The notes below the pieces were generated by a model. It was not told where the DNA came from and searched no databases. It saw nothing but the letters and a program-made list of their open reading frames with translations. A stretch of 64,000 nt of DNA from positions 234,834 through 298,833 of IMG/VR virus record IMGVR_UViG_3300042350_004528. One strand, given 5' to 3'. How positions within the stretch are numbered: the stretch's first letter is position 1; every line of letters begins with the position of its first letter. The stretch is from a virus. This document shows positions 27,345 through 46,469 of this stretch, one piece after another. The translations under genes were made by a program, and so were the position numbers.

Positions 27345-28078
27345 TGTAATAAGTTATTAAATTTTTTGAAATATTTTAGTCTATCATCTAAACCATTTGT
27401 TCCACCATTAACTCTTTTTGTTACTGAAATAACAGTTGCATCGTCAGCTCCTCTATCACAGATAGTCCATAGTTTATTGCTATTAAAAAAATATGCCGCA
27501 GACATCATTGGGTATTTTGTTGCAACCAAATCTGGATTGGCGACACAATCTTCACCGCAGAACTTAGAAAATTTACCATAATTTGCCCTACCAGTTAATT
27601 GTATATAACCTCTTCCTTTAAATCTTACACCATCACCTGGTTGTGTGTTACCAAGATCTTTTCTACCCTCATATGCAGCACCTGACGCAAATTCAACAAC
27701 CCATTTAAAGTTACCAGATTCGTGTGCACATTGCGCTAAAAAGTGAGCTAATCTTAAATTAGTTGTTATATTAAATTTTGCGGCTGTATCTGGTATCTGA
27801 GCTAAAACGTTATCTGGTATTTGTCCTTTTAATTTATCAAGATTTAAACCAGAGTTGTTTGAAATAACTGTTTCAGTTTTTTTAGGTTCTGGAAACATTT
27901 TACCCCAGGTTATATCACCCACAATACCATCATCAAGTAATCCATTGGCTTTCTGCCATGCTTTCACAGCGGCCTCAGTTTTTGGGCCAAAAGTCCCAAG
28001 TGCTTTACCAGCATCTACACCCAAAAAGTTCTGTAATTTTTTTACATCTTCACCTTTTGATCCAATCTTTAACAACAT
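27341..28078 (-). CDS. Endolysin: peptidoglycan-binding domain plus GH19 lysozyme
   Basis: 245 residues. Residues 1-65 are a PG_binding_1 domain (GSKGEDVKKLQNFLGV, FGPKTEAAVKAWQKANGL, DGIVGDITWG). From ~90 a glycoside hydrolase 19 domain: NLRLAHFLAQCAHESGNFKWVVE with the catalytic Glu, then GVRFKGRGYIQLTGRANYGKF and a PDLVATKYPMMSAAYFF region. No signal peptide, so it needs a holin. Upstream is an ACTATTTATAA element, fitting late expression. Confidence 0.92.
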   Translation of the reverse strand: MLLKIGSKGEDVKKLQNFLGVDAGKALGTFGPKTEAAVKAWQKANGLLDDGIVGDITWGKMFPEPKKTETVISNNSGLNLDKLKGQIPDNVLAQIPDTAAKFNITTNLRLAHFLAQCAHESGNFKWVVEFASGAAYEGRKDLGNTQPGDGVRFKGRGYIQLTGRANYGKFSKFCGEDCVANPDLVATKYPMMSAAYFFNSNKLWTICDRGADDATVISVTKRVNGGTNGLDDRLKYFKKFNNLLQ

Positions 28079-28094
28079 ACTTCTTTATTTTATT

Positions 28095-28103
28095 ATAAAT
28101 AGT
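28095..28103 (-). promoter_or_regulatory. Candidate late-promoter element ACTATTTAT (endolysin)
   Basis: Minus-strand ATACTATTTATAA 17 bp before the endolysin ATG; shared with four other units. Confidence 0.5.
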
Positions 28104-28138
28104 ATGAGATAAATAAAAGTAATAAAAAATTAGATTTG

Positions 28139-28209
28139 AGCTGGTAGTTGGAATCGAACCAATCTCTATAAGTTTTGCAGACTTATTGCACTCCATGTAC
28201 ATTACCAGC
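28139..28209 (-). tRNA. tRNA-Cys(GCA)
   Basis: Acceptor GCTGGTA/TACCAGC, anticodon loop CTGCAAA, T-loop TTCGATT. Last tRNA of array A; its codon TGT is in the array leader ORF. Confidence 0.93.
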
Positions 28210-28216
28210 ATATTAG

Positions 28217-28287
28217 CACGGGTGGAAGGATTCGAACCTCCATCGCTGGTTTTGGAGACCAGCATTCTACCATTGAAATACACCCGT
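28217..28287 (-). tRNA. tRNA-Trp(CCA)
   Basis: Acceptor ACGGGTG/CACCCGT, anticodon loop CTCCAAA, normal T-arm. Its TGG codon is in the leader ORF. Confidence 0.93.
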
Positions 28288-28292
28288 ATATT

Positions 28293-28363
28293 GTGGACAC
28301 AGTGGGAATCGAACCCAAACGATCTCCTTGCAAGGGAGTCGACCTGCCTTCGGTATCTGGCCC
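28293..28363 (-). tRNA. tRNA-Ala(TGC), degenerate acceptor stem
   Basis: Anticodon arm ACTCC-CTTGCAA-GGAGA and T-loop TTCGATT are tRNA-like, giving TGC (Ala). The 3' acceptor strand TGTGTCC finds no proper 5' partner (GGGCCAG pairs at about half the positions), and the D-arm is odd. It may be edited, repaired or dead. The leader peptide contains five Ala codons. Confidence 0.55.
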
Positions 28364-28369
28364 ATATGG

Positions 28370-28453
28370 CGGAGAGCGGAGTACTCGAAACTCATACCCG
28401 AAAGTACCACTCGCTTAGCAGGCGGTGACAGCACCCTGGCTGTGTCACTCTCC
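28370..28453 (-). tRNA. tRNA-Ser(GCT), CCA encoded
   Basis: Acceptor GGAGAG/CTCTCC, discriminator G and encoded CCA, class II variable arm, anticodon loop CTGCTAA. Reads AGT/AGC; the array leader uses AGT for its sensor Ser. Confidence 0.88.
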
Positions 28454-28459
28454 ATTTGT

Positions 28460-28533
28460 CGGGAAAGCTGGATTCGAACCAGCGATCTCTCGCGTCCAAG
28501 GCGAGCGAGGATGACCTGACTCCTCCATTTCCC
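28460..28533 (-). tRNA. tRNA-Pro(TGG), unusual loop
   Basis: Acceptor GGGAAA/TTTCCC, anticodon stem CTCGC/GCGAG, loop CTTGGAC giving TGG. Pro tRNAs normally have G37; this has A37, so identity is less certain than for the neighbouring Pro tRNA. Confidence 0.7.
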
Positions 28534-28539
28534 GTTTTG

Positions 28540-28611
28540 TAGGGTAGACAGGGTTCGAACCTGCGACCCCGTGCTCCCAAAGCACGTGCGCTACCAACTG
28601 CGCTACTACCC
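28540..28611 (-). tRNA. tRNA-Pro(TGG)
   Basis: Acceptor GGGTAG with pairing 3' CTACCC, anticodon stem CGTGC/GCACG, loop TTTGGGA. Four Pro codons are in the leader ORF. Confidence 0.9.
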
Positions 28612-28619
28612 TATGTTTG

Positions 28620-28705
28620 TCGGAGTGGAGGGATTCGAACCCCCTGAGTTTCCAATGTGCCAGATTTACAGTCTGGTGCCCATCCGCCGTCTGAGCAGCA
28701 CTCCG
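28620..28705 (-). tRNA. tRNA-Tyr(GTA)
   Basis: Acceptor CGGAGTG/CACTCCG, class II variable arm, anticodon loop CTGTAAA. First tRNA of array A after the attenuator; two TAT codons are in the leader. Confidence 0.93.
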
Positions 28706-28722
28706 AAATGATATAAAACAAA

Positions 28723-28749
28723 AAACCCTGAGATTTTGTCCCAGGGCTT
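28723..28749 (-). terminator. Rho-independent terminator inside attenuator A
   Basis: 11-bp stem with two G-U pairs, loop CAAAA, followed by T6; located between the leader ORF and tRNA-Tyr. Confidence 0.88.
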
Positions 28750-28811
28750 CTACTATTTTATATAATTAGTTTCCAAAAAAAATCGTTAACTAAAAGACAA
28801 TAGAAGCCCTG
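28723..28811 (-). promoter_or_regulatory. Attenuator of tRNA array A (Tyr-Pro-Pro-Ser-Ala-Trp-Cys)
   Basis: Three segments on the minus strand. A (28811-28801) CAGGGCTTCTA lies in codons 25-28 of the leader ORF. B (28752-28742) TAGAAGCCCTG is its perfect 11-bp complement. The terminator stem is AAGCCCTGGGA/TCTCAGGGTTT (28749-28739 with 28733-28723) plus a T run. B therefore pairs either with A (antiterminator) or with the terminator 3' arm. The sensor codons lie just upstream of A. Confidence 0.85.
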
Positions 28812-28884
28812 TTCCAGCTGGATATGCTGGAGCTGCTGGACAACTATACGGCCATGCCACGATATTTTTGTTCAAATTTTTCAT
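28786..28884 (-). CDS. Leader peptide of tRNA array A (32 aa)
   Basis: The ATG at 28884 opens a 32-codon frame. Residues 9-23 read VAWPYSCPAAPAYPA: Trp, Pro, Tyr, Ser, Cys and Ala are exactly the amino acids of the seven tRNAs downstream (Tyr, Pro, Pro, Ser, Ala, Trp, Cys). Ser is encoded by AGT, the codon read by the array's Ser(GCT). Codons 25-28 contain the antiterminator arm. The ORF lies between promoter (28924-28931) and terminator. By analogy with trp/his leaders it is a stalling sensor, not a functional protein. Confidence 0.85.
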   Translation of the reverse strand: MKNLNKNIVAWPYSCPAAPAYPAGTGLLLSFS

Positions 28885-28893
28885 TTTGTCTTT

Positions 28894-28902
28894 ATAAATA
28901 GT
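28894..28902 (-). promoter_or_regulatory. ACTATTTAT element before leader A
   Basis: Minus-strand ACTATTTATAAAG ten bases before the leader ATG; same string as before late genes, so late transcription of this array is possible. Confidence 0.4.
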
Positions 28903-28923
28903 GTGTTCTTTTAAAAAGTGATA

Positions 28924-28931
28924 CAAATATA
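28924..28931 (-). promoter_or_regulatory. Promoter of tRNA array A
   Basis: Minus-strand TATATTTG with CTTG 20 bp upstream, ahead of the leader ORF, so transcripts must pass the attenuator. Confidence 0.7.
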
Positions 28932-28986
28932 AGCACAGTTTTTTAAATAAGCAAGTTTTTTTAAAAATTAATCATAAATTTCTGTT

Positions 28987-29029
28987 ATATCGGTCATGTG
29001 ATACAAATATATCGGTCATGTGATACAAA
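28987..29029. repeat. Tandem 21-bp direct repeat
   Basis: Unit ATATCGGTCATGTGATACAA plus A occurs twice (28987-29007, 29009-29029). The first copy contributes a CAAATATA box. It lies between tRNA-His and the array A promoter; an operator is possible. Confidence 0.7.
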
Positions 29030-29054
29030 CCAGGCGCTTACCACTCACAATTGG

Positions 29055-29129
29055 GGCGAACGATGAGGTTCGAACTCACGACCTCCTGAACCACAATCAG
29101 GCGCTCTAACCAACTGAGCTACGTCCGCC
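29055..29129 (-). tRNA. tRNA-His(GTG)
   Basis: Acceptor GCGGACG/CGTTCGC, encoded G-1 opposite discriminator C73, anticodon loop TTGTGGT. It directly follows the Thg1-like gene. Because G-1 is encoded, Thg1 is not needed simply to add it. A CAT codon sits in the array C leader. Confidence 0.93.
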
Positions 29130-29139
29130 ATGTAATCCC

Positions 29140-29982
29140 CTACCTGTTGGTGGGGATTAAGTTATTTAAATATTCTCTATTTTGAGTAAAGATTGGTGTT
29201 TCGACATCCAATTCCCAAGCGCTTCTGGTGTAAACATCCTTTGGATCAATCACAACCGTATCACGATTGACTTCCGCATTGGCACTTTTACGAACAAACG
29301 TCTTTTCAATTTTTCTGATTATACCACCACGTTTTTCTCTTGGTGAGTAATCATTCCAATTTGTACCAGCCTGAAATATCAATTCTTGCATACCATCGGT
29401 CTTAACCCCATGTAATTGTTTTGGTGAGTATAAACTCTGAGCGACCGATGAAATTGAATTTCTGGTCGCATCTTGTTGTCTCCAGATGAAATAATTCTCA
29501 ACCTCAACTTTTTGTGGGATTTGAAATACCCTGGCATCAAACATAGCCAATTTAGGTTCGCTGGCGTATCTTTTATCCGTCACAGACTTTCTCTCGATAA
29601 CATGTAGATTCTTAATATAACGATCCATTCTCAATTTATTAAAGATGGCTGTTGCCATTGAGGCTGAAACGCTCGCCATTTTCTGTAAGTTATTATCGAA
29701 CCAAGCTTGTGTGCCCTCATCTTCAAAATCGGTGATCAAAATTGAAATCTCATCTGATTGCACATACGCAAACTTAGCACCCATAATGTTTTTACATAGA
29801 TATGCCGCTGTCTCATCCATATCATCAATCAAATCCAAATCAAATGGCCTTCTCAAACCTTTTGTATAGGTGTGAAAAGCCTTACCATCAATTCTGATAA
29901 TGGTGTAACCTCTTCTTGGTAATGAAATACGAGTTCTATCCTCATAGTTCGATTTCATTCTGTCTCCTAATGCGTCTTTCAT
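29140..29982 (-). CDS. Thg1/TLP-family 3'-5' RNA polymerase (tRNA-His guanylyltransferase-like)
   Basis: 280 residues. RISLPRRGYTIIRIDGKAFHTYTKGLRRPFD is the Thg1 N-terminal metal-binding motif (first Asp in RIDGK), AYVQSDEISILI supplies the second acidic site, and DARVFQIP, RQQDATRNSISSVAQ complete the family pattern. Thg1 adds G-1 to tRNA-His; bacterial and phage Thg1-like proteins repair 5'-truncated tRNAs by templated 3'-5' addition. The gene lies 10 bp from tRNA-His, which already encodes G-1, favouring a repair role. Confidence 0.9.
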   Translation of the reverse strand: MKDALGDRMKSNYEDRTRISLPRRGYTIIRIDGKAFHTYTKGLRRPFDLDLIDDMDETAAYLCKNIMGAKFAYVQSDEISILITDFEDEGTQAWFDNNLQKMASVSASMATAIFNKLRMDRYIKNLHVIERKSVTDKRYASEPKLAMFDARVFQIPQKVEVENYFIWRQQDATRNSISSVAQSLYSPKQLHGVKTDGMQELIFQAGTNWNDYSPREKRGGIIRKIEKTFVRKSANAEVNRDTVVIDPKDVYTRSAWELDVETPIFTQNREYLNNLIPTNR

Positions 29983-30413
29983 TTTATTTCTTGGTTAATT
30001 TTATATTCTTCTTCTGTTGCTATTCTAATTGGTACGAACAGCGCATACCCATCATCATCCTCAAAATGGTTACAATCGTCTTCATAAGTCATATTAAACT
30101 TAGTTCGATTGTAGATGAACTTGTTTTGTTTGACATCCCATTTTGCTATGGTGGCTCTCCTATGATCACCCGCATAAAACTGACCGTCAACCAAATTTTT
30201 TTTCTGAATAGCCCCAGCGCCAATTAATTTTGGTACATAAAAGTTATTCCACTCATCAGTTTCAACTCGTGGTAATTCGGGTATATCATTAACACCAGCG
30301 AATGGTTTTAATGTCTCCCAATATTCACGAATACGTTGTTCCCTTTCAGCTTTTTCAATTTCTCGTTTAGCTTTCAGTTCAGCGAATATCATATCTTTAT
30401 CAATCTGTTCCAT
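29979..30413 (-). CDS. Hypothetical protein in the tRNA/Thg1 operon
   Basis: 144 residues, with a highly charged helical N-terminus ([20 protein letters not shown]) then a beta-rich part ending [19 protein letters not shown] overlap with the Thg1-like gene, and 15 bp after tRNA-Ser. Not recognised. Confidence 0.55.
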
Positions 30414-30427
30414 AACAAATCATTTTG

Positions 30428-30512
30428 CGGAGAGGGAGGGATTCGAACCCCCGTTACCTTTCGGTAAAACGGTTTTCAAGACCGCCGCGATCAACCGCTC
30501 TGCCACCTCTCC
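30428..30512 (-). tRNA. tRNA-Ser(TGA)
   Basis: Acceptor GGAGAGG/CCTCTCC, class II variable arm, loop CTTGAAA. Reads TCN; the array C leader uses TCA and TCG for its Ser residues. Confidence 0.93.
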
Positions 30513-30521
30513 AATATTTCA

Positions 30522-30529
30522 CAAATATA
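30522..30529 (-). promoter_or_regulatory. Internal promoter before tRNA-Ser
   Basis: Minus-strand TATATTTG with CTTG 20 bp upstream, between tRNA-Ile and tRNA-Ser. It would drive Ser, the 29979 gene, Thg1 and tRNA-His without the attenuator. Confidence 0.6.
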
Positions 30530-30564
30530 AGAATAAAAATGTTAATTAACAAGTTTATTTTTGG

Positions 30565-30638
30565 TAGGCATGGTAGGACTCGAACCTACGACCTTCTGCG
30601 TATCAGACAGACGCTCTAACCAACTGAGCTACATGCCT
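30565..30638 (-). tRNA. tRNA-Ile(GAT), CCA encoded
   Basis: Acceptor AGGCATG/CATGCCT, loop CTGATAC, encoded CCA. Its ATT/ATC codons occur four times in the leader. Confidence 0.93.
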
Positions 30639-30645
30639 ATATTTG

Positions 30646-30719
30646 TACACCCTGATGGATTCGAACCACCGACCCCCTGCATGTAAGGCAGGTGCTCTAA
30701 CCAACTGAGCTAAGGATGC
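30646..30719 (-). tRNA. tRNA-Val(TAC)
   Basis: Acceptor GCATCCT/AGGGTGT with G-U pairs, loop CTTACAT. GTT and GTG are in the leader. Confidence 0.92.
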
Positions 30720-30725
30720 AAATTG

Positions 30726-30799
30726 TGACCCCATCGGGACTCGAACCCGAAACCTTCGCATTAAAAGTGCGAAGCTCTAACCAATTGAGCTACGAGGTC
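30726..30799 (-). tRNA. tRNA-Lys(TTT)
   Basis: Acceptor GACCTCG/TGGGGTC, loop CTTTTAA. First tRNA after attenuator C; AAA/AAG occur in the leader. Confidence 0.92.
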
Positions 30800-30811
30800 A
30801 TATAAAACAAA

Positions 30812-30836
30812 AAACCCAGGTGGTTTACCTGGGTTT
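30812..30836 (-). terminator. Rho-independent terminator inside attenuator C
   Basis: Stem AAACCCAGGT/ACCTGGGTTT, five-base loop, T run; between leader ORF and tRNA-Lys. Confidence 0.9.
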
Positions 30837-30891
30837 TCTTTTCTAACTCTATGTTCTTTAGTTTAACATAAATTAGGCAATACTAACCCAG
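30812..30891 (-). promoter_or_regulatory. Attenuator of tRNA array C (Lys-Val-Ile-Ser ... His)
   Basis: Antiterminator arm CTGGGTT (30891-30885) in codons 20-22 of the leader pairs perfectly over 7 bp with AACCCAG (30835-30829), the 5' arm of the terminator. Same order as the other three attenuators, with a shorter antiterminator. Confidence 0.75.
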
Positions 30892-30949
30892 CCCAGTTTT
30901 TCACCGAGATATGTTTAATTGACTTAATAATGTTAACCATTGTGTTCAT
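30863..30949 (-). CDS. Leader peptide of tRNA array C (28 aa)
   Basis: The ATG at 30949 opens a 28-codon frame. Residues 5-17 read VNIIKSIKHISVK. The operon encodes tRNAs Lys, Val, Ile, Ser and, after two protein genes, His: all five amino acids appear. Ser codons are TCA and TCG, matching Ser(TGA) rather than Ser(GCT). The antiterminator arm is in codons 20-22. Interpreted as an attenuator leader. Confidence 0.83.
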   Translation of the reverse strand: MNTMVNIIKSIKHISVKNWAGLVLPNLC

Positions 30950-30974
30950 TTTACTGATTTTTAAATATATAGTG

Positions 30975-30982
30975 CAAAAGTA
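30975..30982 (-). promoter_or_regulatory. Promoter of tRNA array C
   Basis: Minus-strand TACTTTTG with CTTG 20 bp upstream, 26 bp before the leader ATG. Confidence 0.7.
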
Positions 30983-31022
30983 AGCAAAGTTTTTTAAATA
31001 TGCAAGTTTTTTCAAAAAAAAA

Positions 31023-31415
31023 TTAAAAAATTTCTCTTTTACCTCTAGATACTGGCTCCAAACCTTTATTTCTGTCAATATAGATCCAGTCATATTCAAC
31101 CAAACCGAACTCATTGAGATGGTCTAATACGGTCTCAATACTATATTCTTTACATGAATAAATGTCAAATTGAACCAAACTTGGTGTATTTGCATCCCAA
31201 ATATGAATCGCAGCATGTGAGGTTGCAAGGGTTATTGTCCCAGTAATACCCTCATTACCTGGCTCGTCAACATAAATGGACGTTGGGCCAGCAACGACAA
31301 CCATACCAACTTTATTTACCAACGAGGTTAACCATGCGTCTAAAACCTCTTCCTTCTTTGGTGGATTTAAAACGTATCCACGGACGATTAAATGCAAGTG
31401 ATTTGGATTGAACAT
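31023..31415 (-). CDS. S-adenosylmethionine decarboxylase-like (SpeH-type) protein
   Basis: 130 residues. ITLATSHAAIHIWDANTPSLVQFDIYSCKEYSIETVLDHL aligns with the prokaryotic AdoMet decarboxylase core (ESH-x-x-x-HTxPE ... DxxxC), where self-cleavage before the Ser of the SH motif makes the pyruvoyl group. The Glu before Ser is Thr here. The enzyme would feed polyamine synthesis or remove SAM needed by restriction or methylation systems. Fold assignment is fair, activity unproven. Confidence 0.65.
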   Translation of the reverse strand: MFNPNHLHLIVRGYVLNPPKKEEVLDAWLTSLVNKVGMVVVAGPTSIYVDEPGNEGITGTITLATSHAAIHIWDANTPSLVQFDIYSCKEYSIETVLDHLNEFGLVEYDWIYIDRNKGLEPVSRGKREIF

Positions 31416-31464
31416 TTTCTATAATATTTACTGAAATAAATATTAAGAATTAGCGTTAAAAACA

Positions 31465-31492
31465 AAAAAACCGAATTATTTATTCGGTTTTT
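31465..31492 (-). terminator. Rho-independent terminator
   Basis: Stem AAACCGAAT/ATTCGGTTT with T run, overlapping the last codons of the 31480 gene. Confidence 0.75.
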
Positions 31493-31863
31493 GCGTTATT
31501 TTTGAATTTTGGTTTTAATGATTTTTTATCAATTTCCATTGTAAAATGGTATCGTAATAAATCATCATCCGTATAATCACCTGACGATGAAAAATTTAAA
31601 GACTTAATGTCAAAACTAAAACCACCGATGATTTCACCAGTGGGGTCAAGGTATTCTAATTCAATTCTCGATAAATTAAATAAATCGGTTGGAATAATAT
31701 GGTCATTAACTGTTTCATAACAAGATGTTTCAAACATTAATCTATCACCATCATTATATAGTTTATATTTTGAAAATAAGTAGGGGTGAATCTCAACACC
31801 AACCGTTTTAATTAACCAGCGATTTGTTTTTTTCGGTTCAATTGGGAATTTTTCGATATTCAT
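31480..31863 (-). CDS. Hypothetical protein
   Basis: 127 residues, beta-rich, unrecognised (WLIKTVGVEIHPYLFSKYKLY). Last gene of the 38-31 kb glycan operon, ended by a terminator. Confidence 0.5.
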   Translation of the reverse strand: MNIEKFPIEPKKTNRWLIKTVGVEIHPYLFSKYKLYNDGDRLMFETSCYETVNDHIIPTDLFNLSRIELEYLDPTGEIIGGFSFDIKSLNFSSSGDYTDDDLLRYHFTMEIDKKSLKPKFKNNAKTE

Positions 31864-31884
31864 GATTAAATTTTATTTTTTTTA

Positions 31885-33537
31885 TTATAAACTGTAAATT
31901 CCAAAAGGCGTAATTAAATAATCAATGATTTTATTTTTTAAATGAGTCATAGCTTCTTCGGGACGATTTACTATTGGCTCGTTATGAACATTAAATGAAG
32001 TATTTACCAAACAACCAAAACCTGTTTGATTTTTATAAGATTTCAAAATATGATAAAATAATGGATTTGAATTTTTAGTTACAATTTGAATACGTGCCGT
32101 TTTGTCCACAGGATGGACAACAGTTGGTAACTTATCTTTCCATTCATCTCGTGTTTCAAAACATAATGTCATAAACTCAGCGGCATATCTAGATTTATTC
32201 ACTATAAACAATCGATTAGCATCCTCATCTATTACTGCTGGCGCAAAAGGCATAAAATCGTTACGTTGTAACTTATCATTAATTAATTTATAAGTTTCGG
32301 GGTGAGTGGCGTCACAAATAATACTTCTATTACCTAAAGCTCTAGGGCCGTGTTCAAATTTGCCCTGAAATAATCCTAATATTTTTTTATTAAGTAATAA
32401 AACAGTAATAAAATCTATATTAAAAGGAATATAATTATATGTTCCTAAAATATTTTTTGCCGCTTCATCTACGTGTTCTTTATCATACTCATTCCCAAAA
32501 AACACATTATTTAATCTAAAAGGTTTAAAATCAGGATGAAGTTGTTTAATCGTTCCTAAAACACACCCTAAAGCTAACCCCTCATCACCCATTGGGGGGG
32601 CTATAAATACTTCATCCACCCATTCTAGTTCATTAATTAATTTATTCATTTTTACATTAGCAAAAATACCTCCAGCCATTGCCACTTTTTTAACATGAGG
32701 ATATTTTTGATGTAAATTATTAAGTATTTTTAAGATTTTTTCCTCAAATACTTTCTGTCCAGTATAAGCAATGTTTTTAATAGTTTCATGATTCTTCCAA
32801 TATCGAGAACCCATTGATTTAAAAAAGTTTTGATAAGTTTTTAAAAAAACATTTCCCCCAGCTAAATCACTATCATCAGAAAAAGGTGAAATTTCTGTTT
32901 GAAGACCATCAATTTTAATAACTTCGTTAAAAGCATCATATATTTCAGGTATTAGTCCTCCATGCCCAGCCATACCCACTACTTTACCTTCATCTTTTAA
33001 TCTTTTAAATCCTATTAATTCTGTAATAGCGGCATAAAATAGTCCTAAAGAATCTCTATTTAATAAAATCCCATCGATATACTCTAAATTACCATTTTTA
33101 CCTAAATAATACTTAGCTGAATGATTTTCTCCTGAACCATCAATAGCCACAACTAATGTATCTTCTTGAAAGTTAGATAAGTAATATGCTGTATTAATAT
33201 GAGAATCGTGGTGTTCGATTTTAATATATTTTTCTTTTTCTAAATTAAAATTAATGGTCATTTTAAAAATATCTCTGATTATTTCGTAATCGTAAAAACT
33301 AGTGAAATAATTTACTTTTCCTAAATCTACATCATGTTTAACTATTAATTCAGTAAGAGAAGCTAAAGGATATCTAAAATAATTATTTTCAAAATCTTTA
33401 TAAGGTTTAATCCTATTTAATCTTTCTTCCTCTAAGACTACTTTTAAATCGCCATTTTCAAAATAAGCTAACCCACAGCTGTGAGAACCACCAATAATTC
33501 CTAATATTCGATAGGAAGAATTTTCGTACAATTTCAT
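31885..33537 (-). CDS. Carbamoyltransferase, NodU/CmcH/TobZ family
   Basis: 550 residues, the usual length. ILGIIGGSHSCGLAYFENGDLKVVLEEERLNRIK, HHDSHINTAYYLSNF, LVVAIDGSGENHSAKYYLG, EGLALGC and KFEHGPRALGNRSIICD are family signatures of the Kae1-like and C-terminal domains. These enzymes place a carbamoyl group on a sugar or nucleoside hydroxyl via carbamoyl-AMP. Neighbours are glycosyl- and methyltransferase-like genes, so a modified sugar on the virion, host surface or DNA is the probable target. Confidence 0.9.
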   Translation of the reverse strand: MKLYENSSYRILGIIGGSHSCGLAYFENGDLKVVLEEERLNRIKPYKDFENNYFRYPLASLTELIVKHDVDLGKVNYFTSFYDYEIIRDIFKMTINFNLEKEKYIKIEHHDSHINTAYYLSNFQEDTLVVAIDGSGENHSAKYYLGKNGNLEYIDGILLNRDSLGLFYAAITELIGFKRLKDEGKVVGMAGHGGLIPEIYDAFNEVIKIDGLQTEISPFSDDSDLAGGNVFLKTYQNFFKSMGSRYWKNHETIKNIAYTGQKVFEEKILKILNNLHQKYPHVKKVAMAGGIFANVKMNKLINELEWVDEVFIAPPMGDEGLALGCVLGTIKQLHPDFKPFRLNNVFFGNEYDKEHVDEAAKNILGTYNYIPFNIDFITVLLLNKKILGLFQGKFEHGPRALGNRSIICDATHPETYKLINDKLQRNDFMPFAPAVIDEDANRLFIVNKSRYAAEFMTLCFETRDEWKDKLPTVVHPVDKTARIQIVTKNSNPLFYHILKSYKNQTGFGCLVNTSFNVHNEPIVNRPEEAMTHLKNKIIDYLITPFGIYSL

Positions 33538-33539
33538 AA

Positions 33540-34220
33540 TTAATCTAATTCTTTTATAATTTCTTTTTTATTAAAATCATATTTCCACCAAGAATTTTCA
33601 CCAGGTGTAGAAATGTATGACACATGAGTCATGTGCGCTTTTTTTACACACATTTGTTTATATTTATTTTGGTTTGTAATTCTGTTAGACCATTGAGCGT
33701 CAGTTGACGCGAGATATTGGGTGATGCCTTGAATATCGTTAGCGGCAATAGTGTGATAAGGGTGTTCTAACCAAATGTGTCTCCTAATTCCAGTAAAAAA
33801 CCAACCAGTAAACGACACTTCAAATTCATCTGGTAGGGCATCCATTTCATATGTTTTAAAAAATTTATTATATTTTTCCATCAAAGGAAGTTGCCCTCCC
33901 TGACAATGTATCCATTGTTTGCCTTGAGAATGAATTGTTGCTAAATAACTATTTTGCCTAACACACGACCACCCTGTAACTATTTCGTGTCTATGTAACG
34001 CTTCTTCTAAATAGGCAAAATTTTCAGGACTAATAATAACATCATCAGAAACAATAAAATAATTATCATAATTTGTTTCTTCAATGAAGGAAGGAATATG
34101 TGTATTGAGTTCATATTCCCTAAACCCCTTAAACCAAACTTTAGGGACTTTTAATTTTGAGATGGCGTGTTTTATGATTTCTTCATCTCTAACACTCATT
34201 ATCATTAAACAATTTTTCAT
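33540..34220 (-). CDS. Glycosyltransferase-like protein
   Basis: 226 residues. NYDNYFIVSDDVIISPENFAYLEEAL resembles the DxD region of GT-A enzymes; EVSFTGWFFTGIRRHIW follows. AT-rich, gap of two bases to the carbamoyltransferase. Weak family evidence; donor unknown. Confidence 0.5.
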   Translation of the reverse strand: MKNCLMIMSVRDEEIIKHAISKLKVPKVWFKGFREYELNTHIPSFIEETNYDNYFIVSDDVIISPENFAYLEEALHRHEIVTGWSCVRQNSYLATIHSQGKQWIHCQGGQLPLMEKYNKFFKTYEMDALPDEFEVSFTGWFFTGIRRHIWLEHPYHTIAANDIQGITQYLASTDAQWSNRITNQNKYKQMCVKKAHMTHVSYISTPGENSWWKYDFNKKEIIKELD

Positions 34221-35869: not shown

Positions 35870-35872
35870 AGT

Positions 35873-36496: not shown

Positions 36497-36497
36497 A

Positions 36498-37721: not shown

Positions 37722-37780
37722 TTTTTTTATAAATTTTGTATAACTTAAAATTAAGTTAAAATAATTGATAAGTAAAGTAT

Positions 37781-38768: not shown

Positions 38769-38776
38769 AATTTCTG

Positions 38777-39152
38777 TGGAGTCGGAGGGATTCGAACCCT
38801 CGTCTCGTTTAGCCATTCAATAATTCTCATTCACATGCTTAGTTCATTTTTCTAAACAAACAAAATATTTGTCTTCACTAACCCAGAAGTTCAATAAAAC
38901 TGGAATACCTTTTTTGGAGTTCCCACCTCCCACCTGGCATCTAAGGGTTTTTGCAGTTTTAACTGACAGTTGTTGGCTTACGCCAATTCGTAGTCTGCAA
39001 ACTCAACTGGCTGACCGTTCAACACGATGTTGCCTTCAGCGTCAATGTAGCTTTCGCCATCTGAAATTGTGTATAGGTTATTTAAGTGTTTCCGATACTA
39101 ACACCACATGCAAATTAAAGAACGAATCTACCGATCGATTCCAGTCGACCCC
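38777..39152 (-). ncRNA. ssrA: tmRNA (ssrA) with unusual long tag
   Basis: 376 nt. 5' end GGGGTCGACTGGAATCGATC and 3' end with GAACTAAGCATGTG, T-arm GAGGG-TTCGAAT-CCCTC and acceptor GGGGTCG/CGACTCC (one G-U) are tmRNA hallmarks; CCA is not fully encoded. The tag frame (39058-38978) starts GESY, as in Bacteroidetes tags, but then continues: GESYIDAEGNIVLNG...EFADYELA-stop, 26 residues, instead of about 10 ending ALAA. Co-transcribed with tRNA-Leu. The phage also has smpB and clpP. Confidence 0.93.
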
Positions 39153-39183
39153 ATATGTATAAATACCGTAATATTTTACTTTG

Positions 39184-39267
39184 TACCGAGGATGGGAGTC
39201 GAACCCACACGGCCTTTTGGGCCAAGGGATTTTAAGTCCCTCATGTCTACCATTCCATCACCTCGGC
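39184..39267 (-). tRNA. tRNA-Leu(TAA), beside tmRNA
   Basis: Acceptor GCCGAGG/CCTCGGT, class II, loop CTTAAAA. Transcribed with tmRNA from 39287, without a leader peptide. Confidence 0.92.
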
Positions 39268-39286
39268 ATTACGATGATTTACACCA

Positions 39287-39294
39287 CAATATTA
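39287..39294 (-). promoter_or_regulatory. Promoter of tRNA-Leu/tmRNA
   Basis: Minus-strand TAATATTG (one mismatch to TAnnTTTG) with TTTG 19 bp upstream. Confidence 0.5.
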
Positions 39295-39318
39295 CGAAAT
39301 TATTTTTAAAAAACAAAA

Positions 39319-39891
39319 TTATTTTCTAAATAGAAACGCATTTTTTATTCCAGGTATCATTGATTCAGAATAAAATGAAATATTTTCTTTTAAACCGTAA
39401 TATGTTTTAAAATTAATCACGTTATCTTCATTATCTTTTTTTATTGAAAATAAAAATGGTGCGTGTGTTTCAAATTCTTTTATTTCATATGTTAAATTAT
39501 ATTTTTTGATTAAATCGTTAACAGCGGTTACCGATCCAGTAAAATAATAATCAACATCAAAACCTAATGATGTTATATCATAACCAATTATTACAAAATT
39601 TAAATTATCATCATTATTGAGATAATCAGCGTAAATTTTTATACCCACAATATTTTCATGTTCATCTGTTTTAATCGCATATTGTTTAAATACTGGTTTA
39701 TCTAATATATTAAACATAGCATTAATATCATGAACTCTACTTTGTAAGTCATCAATATTGTCTATCAAATAATATTGGCTGTTAAGTTTTTCAGTTGTGG
39801 TTAAAAACTTAGCAAAGTTATTATCCCCAGTTGATGCCTTTACATCACCATTCAGATCAATGTAAAAATCTTTGAAGTCTGTTATTTCCAT
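39319..39891 (-). CDS. Hypothetical protein
   Basis: 190 residues, beta-rich, unrecognised. Single-gene unit starting four bases after a promoter box, so probably leaderless. Confidence 0.55.
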   Translation of the reverse strand: MEITDFKDFYIDLNGDVKASTGDNNFAKFLTTTEKLNSQYYLIDNIDDLQSRVHDINAMFNILDKPVFKQYAIKTDEHENIVGIKIYADYLNNDDNLNFVIIGYDITSLGFDVDYYFTGSVTAVNDLIKKYNLTYEIKEFETHAPFLFSIKKDNEDNVINFKTYYGLKENISFYSESMIPGIKNAFLFRK

Positions 39892-39895
39892 AAAA

Positions 39896-39903
39896 CAAAT
39901 ATA
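39896..39903 (-). promoter_or_regulatory. Promoter, leaderless configuration (gene at 39891)
   Basis: Minus-strand TATATTTG, then TTTT, then ATG. Confidence 0.65.
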
Positions 39904-39928
39904 AACAATTTTTTTTAAAAAACAAATG

Positions 39929-39999
39929 TTGTCGGGGGTGGATTCGAACCACCGTAAACTCCTTCAAAGGGAGTTGTCCTGCCGCTAGACGACCCGACA
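39929..39999 (-). tRNA. tRNA-Gln(TTG)
   Basis: Acceptor TGTCGGG/CCCGACA, loop CTTTGAA. CAA/CAG occur four times in the array E leader. Confidence 0.92.
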
Positions 40000-40005
40000 A
40001 TTTAG

Positions 40006-40091
40006 TACCTGGAGAGGGATTCGAACCCTCACGCCCCTTTCAGAGCACTGGATTTTAAGTCCAGCGTGACTACCAGTTCCACCATCCAGGC
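40006..40091 (-). tRNA. tRNA-Leu(TAA)
   Basis: Acceptor GCCTGGA/TCCAGGT, class II, loop CTTAAAA. TTA codons dominate the array E leader. Confidence 0.92.
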
Positions 40092-40096
40092 ATTTG

Positions 40097-40177
40097 TACC
40101 CTCGGTCGGATTCGAACCGACACGCCTCGCGACACTGGTTTCTAAGACCAGCGGGTCTACCGTTCCCCCACGAGGGC
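40097..40177 (-). tRNA. tRNA-Leu(TAG)
   Basis: Acceptor GCCCTCG/CGAGGGT, class II, loop CTTAGAA. Reads CTN; CTA and CTC are in the leader. Confidence 0.92.
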
Positions 40178-40182
40178 ATTTG

Positions 40183-40255
40183 TGGCTTTAACAGGATTCG
40201 AACCCATACTTTATCGTCCGTAGCGATAAGTGCTATCCAGTTACACCATAAAGCC
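40183..40255 (-). tRNA. tRNA-Arg(ACG)
   Basis: Acceptor GGCTTTA/TAAAGCC, loop CTACGGA. Reads CGN; CGC is in the leader. Confidence 0.92.
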
Positions 40256-40261: not shown

Positions 40262-40295
40262 TAAAAAACCCTGAGTTGCTTAGCACCCCAGGGTT
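40262..40295 (-). terminator. Rho-independent terminator inside attenuator E
   Basis: Stem AACCCTGGG/CTCAGGGTT, structured loop, T6; between leader ORF and tRNA-Arg. Confidence 0.85.
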
Positions 40296-40347
40296 GATTT
40301 TTCATAGTTAAAATCTTTGTTTACATATGAACATAGCTTACCCCAGG
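40262..40347 (-). promoter_or_regulatory. Attenuator of tRNA array E (Arg-Leu-Leu-Gln)
   Basis: Arm CCTGGGGT (40347-40340) in codons 19-21 of the leader can pair over 8 bp (two wobble) with ACCCTGGG (40294-40287), the terminator 5' arm. Weaker pairing than in arrays A and F but the same layout. Confidence 0.7.
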
Positions 40348-40401
40348 CTCTTTTGTCAAGAGTTGTAATTGTAACTGGCGTTGTAAGCTTAGTGTTCTCA
40401 T
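40321..40401 (-). CDS. Leader peptide of tRNA array E (26 aa)
   Basis: The ATG at 40401 opens 26 codons beginning MRTLSLQRQLQLQLL. Eleven of residues 2-15 are Leu, Gln or Arg, or twelve with Arg2; the array encodes exactly Arg, Leu, Leu and Gln. Codons include CTA (Leu-TAG), TTA (Leu-TAA), CAA (Gln-TTG) and CGC (Arg-ACG). Attenuator leader by position and content. Confidence 0.85.
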   Translation of the reverse strand: MRTLSLQRQLQLQLLTKEPGVSYVHM

Positions 40402-42675: not shown

Positions 42676-42742
42676 AAATAATGATTTTATAAGACAATAA
42701 TAAGAAAGAAAGTTTGAAATACCAAATATTGGTGAAAAAAAG

Positions 42743-42816
42743 TTGGCGGGATGGGACTTGAACCCATGACCTTGACCTTATAAGAGTCCTGCGCTAACCA
42801 ACTGCGCCACCCGCCA
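42743..42816 (-). tRNA. tRNA-Ile(TAT)
   Basis: Acceptor TGGCGGG/CCCGCCA, loop CTTATAA. A TAT anticodon is rare in bacteria, which usually use modified CAT for ATA; the array F leader contains ATA. Confidence 0.9.
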
Positions 42817-42826
42817 GTCGAATTGG

Positions 42827-42898
42827 AGCGGTAAGACAGAATCGAACTGTCGTCCTCAGCTTGGAAGGCTGATGTAATAGCCACTATACGACTACCGC
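42827..42898 (-). tRNA. tRNA-Gly(TCC)
   Basis: Acceptor GCGGTAG/TTACCGC, loop CTTCCAA. GGA is in the leader. Confidence 0.92.
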
Positions 42899-42911
42899 AA
42901 GATGCCTCATT

Positions 42912-43041
42912 CTGGGGTTTGATTGAGGTCTAGTTACATCGGTTTCTTTCGCTGTTTCAAGAACCTGCCGCACTTCTGCTGGTAAAACCCGTCAACACTA
43001 CTCGGCGGAGATGTGTCGCTCTCCGTTACTCCGACCCCCAG
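42912..43041 (-). ncRNA. Structured spacer in array F
   Basis: No ORF or tRNA. Closed by CTGGGG/CCCCAG, with CCTCA/TGAGG and GGAGA/TCTCC hairpins inside. 43042-43175 continues with CGGTTA/TAACCG and GCTCAT/ATGAGC hairpins. Confidence 0.35.
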
Positions 43042-43175
43042 CATTTTAACTATAAAGGCTCATTACCACCCTATGAGCGGATGATTGCTCTCCAGTACAG
43101 TTTTCGGTTACCATCTGGGTATTAACCGTGATCCTTTAGTGAGATCCAAACACTCTGAGTACCCCTTACTCGTTG

Positions 43176-43248
43176 AGCGGTAGACAGGATTCGAACCTGC
43201 GACCCTCACCTTGGCAAGGTGATGCTCTACCAACTGAGCTACTACCGC
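43176..43248 (-). tRNA. tRNA-Gly(GCC)
   Basis: Acceptor GCGGTAG/CTACCGC, loop TTGCCAA. GGC is in the leader. Confidence 0.93.
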
Positions 43249-43252
43249 TTAA

Positions 43253-43360
43253 AAGACAGCCCACAACGTCCACATTATACCGTTGGTGGGGAATGACGAC
43301 CAGTCAAGTTGTGGTTCTTACTTTATGTCGCCTGCAACAGGTGCCACCCACTTCTGTCTT
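43253..43360 (-). ncRNA. Structured spacer in array F
   Basis: Closed by AAGACAG/CTGTCTT (7 bp) with nested CCACAAC/GTTGTGG (7 bp) and a CCTG/CAGG hairpin. Confidence 0.45.
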
Positions 43361-43363
43361 AGC

Positions 43364-43452
43364 ACTCGACATGGGAATCGAACCCACCACCCTTAGCGCA
43401 CCACTGTTATGGTGATTCGAACACCGCTACTAAGGGCTGACCCCAATCGAGT
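43364..43452 (-). ncRNA. Divergent tRNA-like element
   Basis: 89 nt. Acceptor-like ACTCGAT/GTCGAGT (7 bp) and T-arm GTGGG-TTCGATT-CCCAT are normal. Between them is a CCCTTAG/CTAAGGG stem enclosing a second T-arm-like hairpin (GGTG-TTCGAAT-CACC). No ordinary D or anticodon arm; could be read as Ser(CGA) only by force. Confidence 0.5.
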
Positions 43453-43455
43453 AAG

Positions 43456-43486
43456 TTGGGGAACCTATTTACAAGCTTTTGGTTCC
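43456..43486. ncRNA. Strong hairpin in array F spacer
   Basis: Perfect 8-bp GGGGAACC/GGTTCCCC stem. The rest of 43487-43668 shows small hairpins only (TCCC/GGGA near 43633-43650). Confidence 0.45.
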
Positions 43487-43668
43487 CCGATTGATCAAGT
43501 TATTTAATTATTTTAACCTCAAATAAGGCATTCACATCGCCAATAAAGGGGATCGGCTTTAAGGTTTAACCGCCATAACTCTCAGATACGCTCGTCATGT
43601 GACTCTTTCTCCGTTTATTTTAAGATGCACGGATCCCTCTCTGATGGGAGTACAAAACATCTGCTTGG

Positions 43669-43743
43669 TTGCGGGAACGGGATTCGAACCCGTGTAATTC
43701 GGCTTATGAGACCGAGCTGGAACCAACTCCAGTCCACCCCGCA
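43669..43743 (-). tRNA. tRNA-Met(CAT), elongator or Ile2 type
   Basis: Acceptor TGCGGGG/TCCCGCA fully paired at 1-72, anticodon stem TCGGT/GCCGA, loop CTCATAA, CCA encoded. Confidence 0.9.
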
Positions 43744-44286
43744 GTAATGAAAGGCTCTGAATCGTCCCTGCGCCATTCTCAGGAGAGCCTTTCGGTTTTA
43801 AATAGATTCGGCGATCGATTATTCCCACTGATATACCTAAGATTCGTTAGATCATAGTAACCATCCACAATGGGCCTATACTCTTACACTCCGTCCGTAT
43901 TTACTCACCTAATCAAATGCGTCATAGGTATTTCAGATACAGCGTTCAGTGCTACCCTCAGGACTTCTTCACCCTACCCCCATAGTTACGTGGCAGATCT
44001 CGCTCGGAAGAAAAGAGCGTGTATCGTAGAATTGTCCAGTATTTCTACGACTTGTGGATTACAACACGACCAATTAAGGCCCCTTACCCTCTCAATCCAT
44101 AATGAGGGACTCGGTCATACTCGTTCCCAACGTATCCGACTGAACTTCCCCATGTCGGTAAACCCCGTTTATTAGAGGTTATACGAATTTCACTTCTTGT
44201 GTGACCTTCCCCATAGCCTTGGAGCCTTCTAGCCAGGTTCACACACCATAACGGATGAGTACGTCCGTTAATCGTGGGGTCTTTTG
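43744..44286 (-). ncRNA. Long non-coding structured spacer in array F
   Basis: 540 bp with no credible ORF and higher GC than flanking genes. Perfect hairpins include GAAAGGCTCT/AGAGCCTTTC (43749-43793), CGTAGAA/TTCTACG, CCCTC/GAGGG, GTGTGA/TCACAC and TAACGGA/TCCGTTA (44249-44270). Function unknown. Confidence 0.45.
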
Positions 44287-44377
44287 CTGATTAAAGGGAA
44301 TTGAACCCAATCCTCCAGCCCTGTCCACTTCTATCCTGAAGCAACTAGGGCCAGTGTGCCCATTACACTATAACCAA
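44287..44377 (-). ncRNA. Divergent tRNA-like element
   Basis: 91 nt. TTGGTTA/TAATCAG acceptor-like stem (two G-U), D-arm GTGT-AATGG-GCAC, T-loop TTCAATT. The anticodon position is GCCCT/AGGGC with a 24-nt loop instead of 7. The adjoining 44378-44426 carries a second fragment with a GAGAG-GTTCGAAA-CTCTC T-arm-like hairpin. Confidence 0.45.
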
Positions 44378-44426
44378 TCGAGAGTTTCGAACCTCTCAGA
44401 CTCAAGTTAATTACTCTTGAGTTTTG

Positions 44427-44498
44427 TAGCGGGGGTGGGAATCGAACCCACGACCTCCAGGTTATGAGCCTGGCGAGCTACCTCTGCTCTACCCCGCA
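44427..44498 (-). tRNA. tRNA-fMet(CAT), initiator-like
   Basis: T1-T72 is unpaired above GCGGGG/CCCCGC, the initiator hallmark; D-arm AGAGCAGAGGTAGCTCG and loop CTCATAA resemble initiators. Anticodon stem CCAGG/CCTGG has two of the three usual G-C pairs. Confidence 0.8.
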
Positions 44499-44504
44499 AT
44501 GTTG

Positions 44505-44576
44505 TACTCCCTACGGGAATCGAACCCGTCTTTTCAGGATGAAAACCTGATGTCCTAACCGATAGACGAAAGGAGC
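44505..44576 (-). tRNA. tRNA-Glu(TTC)
   Basis: Acceptor GCTCCTT/AGGGAGT, loop TTTTCAT. GAG is in the leader. Confidence 0.93.
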
Positions 44577-44579
44577 GTA

Positions 44580-44785
44580 AATTGATGATTCGACCACATT
44601 TCTTACCAGAGCGGAACTAAGGGGTCTATTGGTACCGTACCCTCATGCACTCGATTGGGATTGCAGCCCCGTGAGTCTCCCGATGCGCCAGATTGTCTTT
44701 CCTATACTTTCGCTAACCTATCTGTTATTGGGTTCTGGCAGTGTCCCAGTTAGCATACTCCCATAGTACTTTTTCCTCATCAATT
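44580..44785 (-). ncRNA. Structured spacer in array F
   Basis: Closed by a perfect 9-bp AATTGATGA/TCATCAATT; inside are GCTAAC/GTTAGC and a decayed T-arm-like GGG-CTGCAAT-CCC. 44786-44953 continues with a GTCTTATG/CATAAGAC hairpin and nothing coding. Confidence 0.45.
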
Positions 44786-44953
44786 CTTTTTTTTTGCCTT
44801 TACCTTTCAAAGACTAAGTAGGTTTAGTTGCGGACTTTCACGTCTTATGCGTCCATAAGACTCCTTCCTCTGAGTGCTTCTCTTTTTACAGTCTTTAAAC
44901 TATCAAGGTACGTTATCTCAGTTTTCAACACAAAACCACTGTGTTAGCAATCG

Positions 44954-45027
44954 CGATCCCGATAGGATTCGAACCTATGACCTACTGCTTAGAAGGCAGT
45001 TGCTCTATCCAGCTGAGCTACGGGATC
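44954..45027 (-). tRNA. tRNA-Arg(TCT)
   Basis: Acceptor GATCCCG/CGGGATC, loop CTTCTAA. All three Arg codons of the array F leader are AGA. Confidence 0.93.
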
Positions 45028-45036
45028 GTAAATTTC

Positions 45037-45097
45037 GGGTTGATCTTTTTAGTCGGATTTACAAGTCTGATTTTTTAAGATTTGCTGAACTCAACCC
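45037..45097 (-). ncRNA. Structured spacer in array F
   Basis: Closed by GGGTTGA/TCAACCC. Contains TTCAGCAAATC, which recurs in the insert of the tRNA-like element at 45328. Confidence 0.35.
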
Positions 45098-45105
45098 CAA
45101 TAAGT

Positions 45106-45248
45106 AAATAAAACACAGGATGCGTTTATACGTGCTCTAACCAACTGAGCTATCGACCTCATACGAAGCCGAGTGGGACTCGAACCCACGACCCCGAGGT
45201 TGACATCCTAAAGTTTAATTTGCGGAATGCATCCTCTTTGTTTTATTT
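45106..45248 (-). tRNA. Circularly permuted tRNA-Asp(GTC)-like gene
   Basis: The 3' half (45209-45166) precedes the 5' half (45159-45131), separated by CGTATG. Joined, they give a complete cloverleaf: acceptor AGGTCGA/TCGGCTT (7 pairs, two G-U), D-stem GCTC/GAGC, anticodon stem CGAGG/CCTCG with loop ATGTCAA, T-arm GTGGG-TTCGAGT-CCCAC. The break lies in the 5' strand of the anticodon stem. Flanks pair as AAATAAAACA/TGTTTTATTT and AGGATGC/GCATCCT, a 17-bp clamp. Maturation would need cutting and ligation. Confidence 0.7.
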
Positions 45249-45249
45249 G

Positions 45250-45321
45250 CGGTCTATGCGGGAATCGAACCCGCCTCACCGCCGTGACAGGGCGGCATCC
45301 TAGCCGATGAACGAATAGACC
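45250..45321 (-). tRNA. tRNA-Asp(GTC)
   Basis: Acceptor GGTCTAT/ATAGACC, anticodon stem CCGCC/GGCGG, loop CTGTCAC. GAC is in the leader. Confidence 0.93.
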
Positions 45322-45327
45322 GTTTAG

Positions 45328-45449
45328 AGCCCAGAGCTGGATTCGAACCAGCGCCTTTTTTTTCCATAAAAAATTGTTAGATAGTGATTTGCTGAAATCA
45401 TCCACACTGGATGACTCTTTTTTTAATGCTACCGCTACACCATCTGGGC
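45328..45449 (-). ncRNA. Interrupted tRNA-like element
   Basis: 122 nt. Acceptor GCCCAGA/TCTGGGC and T-arm GCTGG-TTCGAAT-CCAGC are perfect and a D-arm is visible. In the anticodon region lies a ~75-nt A/T-rich insert with a CATCCA/TGGATG hairpin. No normal anticodon can be read; intron-like, decoy or dead tRNA. Confidence 0.5.
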
Positions 45450-45453
45450 TTTG

Positions 45454-45527
45454 CTCCCCCGTCAGGGCTCGAACCTGAGACCTACTGATTAACAGTCAGT
45501 TGCTCTAACCAGCTGAGCTACAGAGGA
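45454..45527 (-). tRNA. tRNA-Asn(GTT)
   Basis: Acceptor TCCTCTG/CGGGGGA with G-U pairs, loop CTGTTAA. Two AAT codons are in the leader. Confidence 0.93.
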
Positions 45528-45529
45528 AT

Positions 45530-45620
45530 ATTTGATGGTGTCACAACTATATACCATCAGCTACGGAACCCTTCTGTTAATAAGTAAGTAGGAGATTTAA
45601 AAATCTCGTCCGTATCAAAT
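45530..45620 (-). ncRNA. Structured spacer in array F
   Basis: Closed by ATTTGAT/ATCAAAT with inner TACGGA/TCCGTA, GATGGT/ACCATC and GAGATTT/AAATCTC. 45621-45710 adds TTGTC/GACAA and CAAAG/CTTTG hairpins. Confidence 0.45.
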
Positions 45621-45710
45621 CCACGCCATTGGTTACGTTGTCTCACGACAAGAGGCTTTACCAAGGCAAAGTTTTAATTTTTTCACCAATATGTCAAAGA
45701 ACAATCTTTG

Positions 45711-45783
45711 AGCCACATGACGGGATCGAACCGCCGACCTACTGATTACAAATCAGTTGCTCTACCAGCTGAGCTAATGTGGC
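45711..45783 (-). tRNA. tRNA-Thr(TGT)
   Basis: Acceptor GCCACAT/ATGTGGC, loop TTTGTAA. ACA and ACG are in the leader. Confidence 0.93.
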
Positions 45784-45788
45784 ATCTG

Positions 45789-45861
45789 TGGTGCGGGGAG
45801 GAATCGAACCTCCGACACAGGGATTTTCAGTCCCTTGCTCTACCAACTGAGCTACCGCACC
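45789..45861 (-). tRNA. tRNA-Phe(GAA)
   Basis: Acceptor GGTGCGG/CCGCACC, loop CTGAAAA. TTC and TTT are in the leader. Confidence 0.93.
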
Positions 45862-46339: not shown

Positions 46340-46366
46340 AAAACCCGAACTTTTGGTTCGGGCTTT
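46340..46366 (-). terminator. Rho-independent terminator inside attenuator F
   Basis: Stem AAAGCCCGAAC/GTTCGGGTTTT (one G-U) followed by T run. Confidence 0.9.
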
Positions 46367-46411
46367 CTACTATGGTTTACACAATGAATAATTACACCAA
46401 TAGAAAGCCCG
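46340..46411 (-). promoter_or_regulatory. Attenuator upstream of tRNA array F
   Basis: Arm CGGGCTTTCTA (46411-46401), in codons 20-23 of the leader, is perfectly complementary over 11 bp to TAGAAAGCCCG (46369-46359), the terminator 5' arm. Same geometry as attenuator A with a different sequence, so the pairings are conserved rather than the bases. Confidence 0.85.
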
Positions 46412-46469
46412 TAGATGAGTCCTCGCCTCTTCCAAAGAATCTATTCGTTGTATTTATCACTCTTTTCAT
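46392..46469 (-). CDS. Leader peptide of tRNA array F (25 aa)
   Basis: The ATG at 46469 opens 25 codons beginning MKRVINTTNRFFGRGED. Residues 5-17 contain only Ile, Asn, Thr, Arg, Phe, Gly, Glu and Asp, all encoded as tRNAs in array F. Codons match anticodons: AGA for Arg(TCT), ATA for Ile(TAT), GGA and GGC for Gly(TCC) and Gly(GCC). Codons 20-23 hold the antiterminator arm. Confidence 0.85.
   Translation of the reverse strand: MKRVINTTNRFFGRGEDSSTGFLLV

Follow-up and report, generated by a model that had tools for sequence, protein, structure and literature searches.

Putative leader-peptide attenuators preceding the tRNA arrays of a phage and of related huge phages

tRNA arrays of the window and their leader regions

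The DNA stretch analysed (the window) takes up the final 64 kb of the 298,833-bp virus record IMGVR_UViG_3300042350_004528. Every tRNA detected in this record falls inside the window and lies on the minus strand. The main tRNA genes form four arrays, A to D, and each of them has one predicted attenuator. The features of array A are as follows.

28924..28954, minus strand: promoter A, of the Bacteroidota type (TTG at 28954-28952; TATATTTG at 28931-28924)
28884-28722, minus strand: predicted attenuator A, comprising a leader ORF with AWPYSCPAAPAYPA and hairpins that exclude one another (1:2, 2:3 antiterminator, 3:4 terminator)
28786..28884, minus strand: leader ORF A, 32 codons, peptide MKNLNKNIVAWPYSCPAAPAYPAGTGLLLSFS followed by a stop
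28796..28817, minus strand: arm 2 of attenuator A, with the perfect 11-bp core CAGGGCTTCTA at 28811-28801
28742..28752, minus strand: arm 3 of attenuator A, TAGAAGCCCTG, common to antiterminator and terminator
28719..28748, minus strand: terminator A, hairpin at 28748-28724 with overlapping U tract
28138..28705, minus strand: tRNA array A, Tyr(GUA), Pro(UGG), Pro(UGG), Ser(GCU), Ala(UGC), Trp(CCA), Cys(GCA)

The order Tyr-Pro-Pro-Ser-Ala-Trp-Cys, proposed earlier from the sequence alone, proved to be correct, as judged by the tRNA programs and, for Ser, by eye and by orthology. ARAGORN detected five of the seven tRNAs, and the score of tRNA Ala(UGC), 25.8 bits, is under the curated cut-off. 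Both programs overlooked the Ser(GCU) gene (about 28371-28456, minus strand); inspection by eye reveals it, and it has a clear ortholog at the corresponding place in the related locus L178 (86% mean column identity). In the region 29052-29982 (minus strand), a tRNA-His gene is situated directly 3' of a gene similar to tRNA-His guanylyltransferase (PHROG 4717) and has no attenuator of its own.

The control codons of leader A are GCA TGG CCG TAT AGT TGT CCA GCA GCT CCA GCA TAT CCA GCT. The translation of the leader confirmed the statement of the earlier note that 14 consecutive residues are all drawn from Ala, Trp, Pro, Tyr, Ser and Cys; no longer run of such residues occurs in any of the six reading frames of the whole window, the runner-up having eight. 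The tRNAs located downstream decode 12 of the 16 codons 6-21 (binomial p 7e-7).

The predicted RNA structures of this region are mutually exclusive. The 11-bp antiterminator claimed earlier was found as described, CAGGGCTTCTA (28811-28801) and TAGAAGCCCTG (28752-28742) being complementary without a mismatch. The terminator does share the central arm with it, as had been proposed, but instead of 11 bp it is best drawn with 10 (28748-28724), two of them G-U pairs, and the hairpin is able to extend into the U tract. The computed energies are -28.4 kcal/mol for the antiterminator and -14.1 kcal/mol for the terminator; both have a z of -4.7, and in each case none of 200 shuffled sequences was equally stable. 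Before arm 3 is made, arm 2 is predicted to be 77% paired, mostly to leader codons 13-20. Codon matching, the antiterminator, the 1:2 pairing and the promoter motif thus support the earlier proposal of a leader-peptide transcription attenuator for array A, as far as sequence can indicate it.

The three other arrays are preceded by regions of the same layout.

30863..30949, minus strand: leader ORF B, MNTMVNIIKSIKHISVKNWAGLVLPNLC; promoter motif TACTTTTG at 30982-30975; arm 2 at 30894-30873
30811..30837, minus strand: terminator B
30427..30799, minus strand: tRNA array B, Lys(UUU), Val(UAC), Ile(GAU), Ser(UGA)
40321..40401, minus strand: leader ORF C, MRTLSLQRQLQLQLLTKEPGVSYVHM; promoter motif TATCTTTG at 40542-40535; arm 2 at 40350-40339
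40267..40295, minus strand: terminator C
38774..40255, minus strand: array C, Arg(ACG), Leu(UAG), Leu(UAA), Gln(UUG), then an ORF, Leu(UAA) and a tmRNA
46392..46469, minus strand: leader ORF D, MKRVINTTNRFFGRGEDSSTGFLLV; promoter-like TATATTTA at 46499-46492; arm 2 at 46412-46394
46340..46366, minus strand: terminator D
42742..45861, minus strand: tRNA array D, Phe, Thr, Asn, Asp, Arg(UCU), Glu, Met, Met, Gly(GCC), Gly(UCC), Ile(UAU)

Leader B carries VNIIKSIKHISVK 5' of the Lys-Val-Ile-Ser array, leader C carries LSLQRQLQLQLL 5' of the Arg-Leu-Leu-Gln tRNAs, and leader D carries INTTNRFFGRGED 5' of the Phe-Thr-Asn-Asp-Arg-Glu-Met-Met-Gly-Gly-Ile array. The tRNAs of the respective array read 11 of the 16 codons 6-21 in leader B (p 4e-4), 10 of 16 in leader C (p 2e-6) and 14 of 16 in leader D (p 6e-4). 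The agreement extends to isoacceptors. Serine is encoded by AGT in leader A, matching tRNA Ser(GCU), and by TCA and TCG in leader B, matching Ser(UGA); isoleucine is encoded by ATT and ATC in leader B and by ATA in leader D, and arginine by CGC in leader C and AGA in leader D, each array having the matching anticodon. In all four leaders of the window arm 2 is predicted to be 73-92% paired before arm 3 is made, chiefly with the control-codon region.

Some details of these arrays deserve mention. Leader ORF B has a further in-frame ATG upstream, and the Ser(UGA) gene of array B has its own promoter-like TATATTTG immediately 5'. A phage tmRNA gene (Rfam, 78.8 bits) is located at 38774-39152 (minus strand), 3' of array C; the ORF, Leu(UAA) and tmRNA at the end of this array are perhaps a separate unit. 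Two promoter-like TANNTTTG sites were noticed at 46203-46340 (minus strand), from terminator D to the first tRNA of array D, and this array may therefore be transcribed partly without attenuator control. The spacers of array D (42900-46100, minus strand) are rich in tRNA-like fragments and apparently interrupted tRNAs, such as two tRNA halves flanking an insert at 45440-45327 (minus strand). A match to YrlA (Y RNA-like) at 45099-45221 is sub-threshold, with 45.9 bits against a cut-off of 69. Arm 2 sequences of A (28801-28811, minus strand) and D (46402-46411, minus strand) are almost identical (AGGGCTTCTATTG and CGGGCTTTCTATTG), which suggests the duplication of one attenuator that was given a new control region.

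Leaders in related phages

Related regions were collected as 141 loci by means of two neighbouring genes, and whole records, some of them of published phages (462-735 kb), supplied more array regions. A leader was defined independently of its codon match: a terminator had to lie no more than 500 nt 5' of a tRNA, preceded by an ORF with an ATG start, 14-48 codons in length, whose end lay 17-50 nt from the terminator, and the longest such ORF was kept. This yielded 67 leaders in 45 clusters from related phages, including published huge phages of 635-735 kb; the published large-phage records LR745206, LR756501, LR756502 and LR756504 contain such leaders.

The match of leader codons 6-21 to their own array has a mean z of 3.88 for the 45 cluster representatives. 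With permuted arrays the mean z is -0.01 +/- 0.22, and none of 20,000 permutations reached the observed value; frames +1 and +2 of the same leaders give -0.56 and -0.63. An isoacceptor test, confined to Ser, Arg, Leu and Ile where the array covers one of two codon boxes, placed 91 of 113 codons in the covered box versus 66.7 expected (z 5.0). The pairing potential follows the same pattern. Leader tails pair with their own terminator arm with a mean of -15.4 kcal/mol, compared with -8.8 +/- 0.41 kcal/mol for swapped partners (0 of 20,000 permutations), and the predicted 1:2 pairing of control codons with the tail has a mean of -14.2 versus -11.9 +/- 0.46 kcal/mol (0 of 5,000 permutations), both over the 45 clusters. 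Arm 2 is usually close to the leader stop codon or spans it. The TANNTTTG motif occurs 15-75 nt 5' of 29 of the 45 leaders; the corresponding share is 10% for long ORFs and 5% for random positions. Since this motif is of the Bacteroidota type, its enrichment suggests a Bacteroidota host. No relative turned up when contigs were scanned for a neighbouring gene, and hence no host link was obtained.

Individual leaders illustrate this correspondence: MTTTQQIQQQQINQTD precedes three Gln tRNAs, MKTIAMIIRMRIIRPKMLG Arg-Ile-Met tRNAs and MKNLVNIQHQPVQHPQ Pro-His-Gln tRNAs; QQIQQQQINQ, ahead of a Gln-only array, ranks among the extreme cases. The ortholog of array A in L178 reads Tyr-Pro-Ser(UGA)-Ser(GCU)-Ala-Trp-Cys, with one Pro fewer and Ser(UGA) added relative to the window. 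Its leader control region, ASWSYSPCSAYPA, has two Pro codons versus four in leader A of the window, and its Ser codons are TCT, TCG, AGT and TCA, whereas the control region of leader A uses AGT alone. The loss of Pro codons and the gain of TCN codons parallel the changes in tRNAs, which indicates that leader codons follow the tRNA gene content. Judging by these comparisons, leaders appear to be rewritten as the array changes, with dozens of versions in related huge phages. Besides, the locus L199 (LR756504.1, 4008-4316, minus strand) contains tandem leader-terminator units, AKQDKQYQPQYD and KTKKQQYKQYQPQYK, within about 310 nt, as if one array bore two serial attenuators.

The match is not uniform. 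The leader of L160 (p 0.14) and that of the first array of L135 (p 0.75) match weakly; some genes escape tRNA prediction, so that match scores come out lower, and missed tRNAs may explain part of these cases. The duplex is weak in the Gln leader of L205. Some arrays in related phages are without a recognised leader. The census gave 49 of 112 arrays with a leader; this is an undercount, because duplicate leaders were removed and tRNAs beyond long gaps were tallied as separate arrays, and the figure is given no weight as evidence. The ORFs at L185 6697 and L203 4526 are probably not leaders, and the distance and length rule was meant to exclude such cases. A tblastn search of phage records with a leader peptide as the query returned chance matches only.

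Outside this group, no candidates were found in the tRNA-bearing regions of Mycobacterium phage Myrna, Xanthomonas phage XacN1, Salmonella phage EH7, Stenotrophomonas phage RAS14 and crAss-like cr108_1. The array region of Prevotella phage Lak-A2 (L200), with many tRNAs on one strand (18 by ARAGORN), has no recognisable leader-terminator unit either. The system thus does not seem to be common to all phages that carry tRNAs, the survey of six control phages being a small one.

Proposed mechanism and alternative explanations

The anatomy of these regions, the codon matching specific to array and isoacceptor, the mutually exclusive pairings and the spread across phages are apparent from the sequences. 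The regions combine an ORF with cognate codons, an intrinsic terminator before the first gene (in the relatives, a criterion of selection), an antiterminator using the 5' arm of the terminator and predicted 1:2 pairing. It is very probable that they are ribosome-mediated transcription attenuators, in which a shortage of the array's own tRNAs would turn on the whole array. From this architecture we infer that the leader is translated, that the ribosome stalls on it, that the terminator works, and in which direction the switch responds.

RNA polymerase would start at the Bacteroidota-type promoter, and a ribosome would trail along the short leader ORF, whose middle codons are those read by the tRNAs encoded directly 3'. 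When charged tRNAs are plentiful, the ribosome would reach the stop codon and mask arm 2, or arm 2 would remain paired with arm 1; arm 3 would then pair with arm 4, and transcription would stop before the first tRNA. If any tRNA of the array is scarce (depleted, cleaved, uncharged or short of the phage codon demand), the ribosome would stall on arm 1, and arm 2, left free, would pair with arm 3, so that no terminator forms and the entire array is transcribed. The usual location of arm 2 near or across the leader stop codon implies that a finishing ribosome should mask it and a stalled one should free it. Because the leaders hold codons for nearly every tRNA of the array, the lack of any single tRNA should induce all of them. 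The outcome would be a many-input OR gate matching tRNA supply to demand for each isoacceptor.

That the agreement is due to chance and to observer selection is hardly conceivable. Short ORFs and terminators are common, there is some freedom in the choice of ORF, and nearly any leader would match a large array; however, leaders were chosen irrespective of the match, the permutations and the negative values in other frames refute this explanation, and the six control regions are without candidates. It is nearly as improbable that the leader peptides are simply small proteins whose tRNA match is incidental or reflects general codon preference. The ORFs look translated and relatives are conserved within subfamilies, yet the peptides of different arrays have no common sequence and each fits its own array only, while the structure and position are those of an attenuator.

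Two other explanations retain the switch and differ in the signal or its purpose. General amino-acid starvation, sensed through uncharged tRNA instead of the amount of decoding tRNA, would stall the ribosome just as a missing tRNA would, and amino-acid operons have this layout. Nevertheless, the production of tRNAs would not relieve starvation, and starvation does not require codon choice at the level of isoacceptors (AGT as against TCN for Ser, ATA as against ATY for Ile); this explanation is rather unlikely. A somewhat better, though still tentative, case can be made for a switch serving mainly counter-defence, where host anticodon nucleases cut tRNAs and the stalled leader ribosome triggers synthesis of a replacement set. 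Sensing of isoacceptors and OR logic agree with it, but the leaders span nearly all amino acids, beyond the targets of known nucleases.

Relation to known systems and biological meaning

Attenuators of amino-acid and aminoacyl-tRNA synthetase operons (trp, his, ilvGMEDA, pheST) consist of a short leader ORF with control codons, arms pairing as 1:2, 2:3 and 3:4, and an intrinsic terminator; the ilvGMEDA attenuator likewise responds to several amino acids. The phage leaders share the ORF, control codons, arm layout and terminator with them. They differ in that the output is tRNA genes and not enzymes, that the control codons can represent a dozen or more amino acids while tracking the isoacceptors of the array, and that they are phage-borne and re-coded along with the array. 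In T-box riboswitches, tRNA status controls transcription 5' of translation genes, but uncharged tRNA is bound directly, without a ribosome; the phage switch would also subject transcription to tRNA status, but by way of the ribosome. No T-box was matched at the gathering threshold across the window or at E <= 0.1 over 27500-47000, and these scans matched no other known leader family either.

The general mechanism of leader-peptide attenuation has been described (PMC1183508), and huge phages with up to 67 tRNAs have been reported (Al-Shayeb et al. 2020, PMC7162821). The main text of the latter paper does not contain 'attenuat', 'leader' or 'terminator' and does not describe the regulation of arrays. 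The papers on huge phages and viral tRNA genes that were searched do not mention attenuation, and a search of 5.39 million open papers returned none on the attenuation of tRNA arrays by leader peptides, most subscription journals and preprints lying outside it. The type of mechanism is textbook; the target, the many-input sensing of isoacceptors and the phage setting appear to be new. No earlier instance of tRNA genes placed under a leader peptide that samples those same tRNAs was found in the literature searched, and this one appears to be the first.

The finding bears on the long-standing question of why and when phages express tRNA arrays. The leaders would tell which tRNAs the phage must keep supplied, to the level of isoacceptors, and offer a direct test of the timing of shortage. 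As the sensors change with gene content across dozens of phages, they make up a natural library of multi-codon attenuators. More speculatively, modular and rapidly re-coded multi-input attenuators of huge Bacteroidota phages might sense the loss of isoacceptors in infection, for example by host anticodon nucleases, and switch on replacements. If true, this would be counter-defence at the level of tRNA, with a sensor rewritten each time the tRNA array changes.
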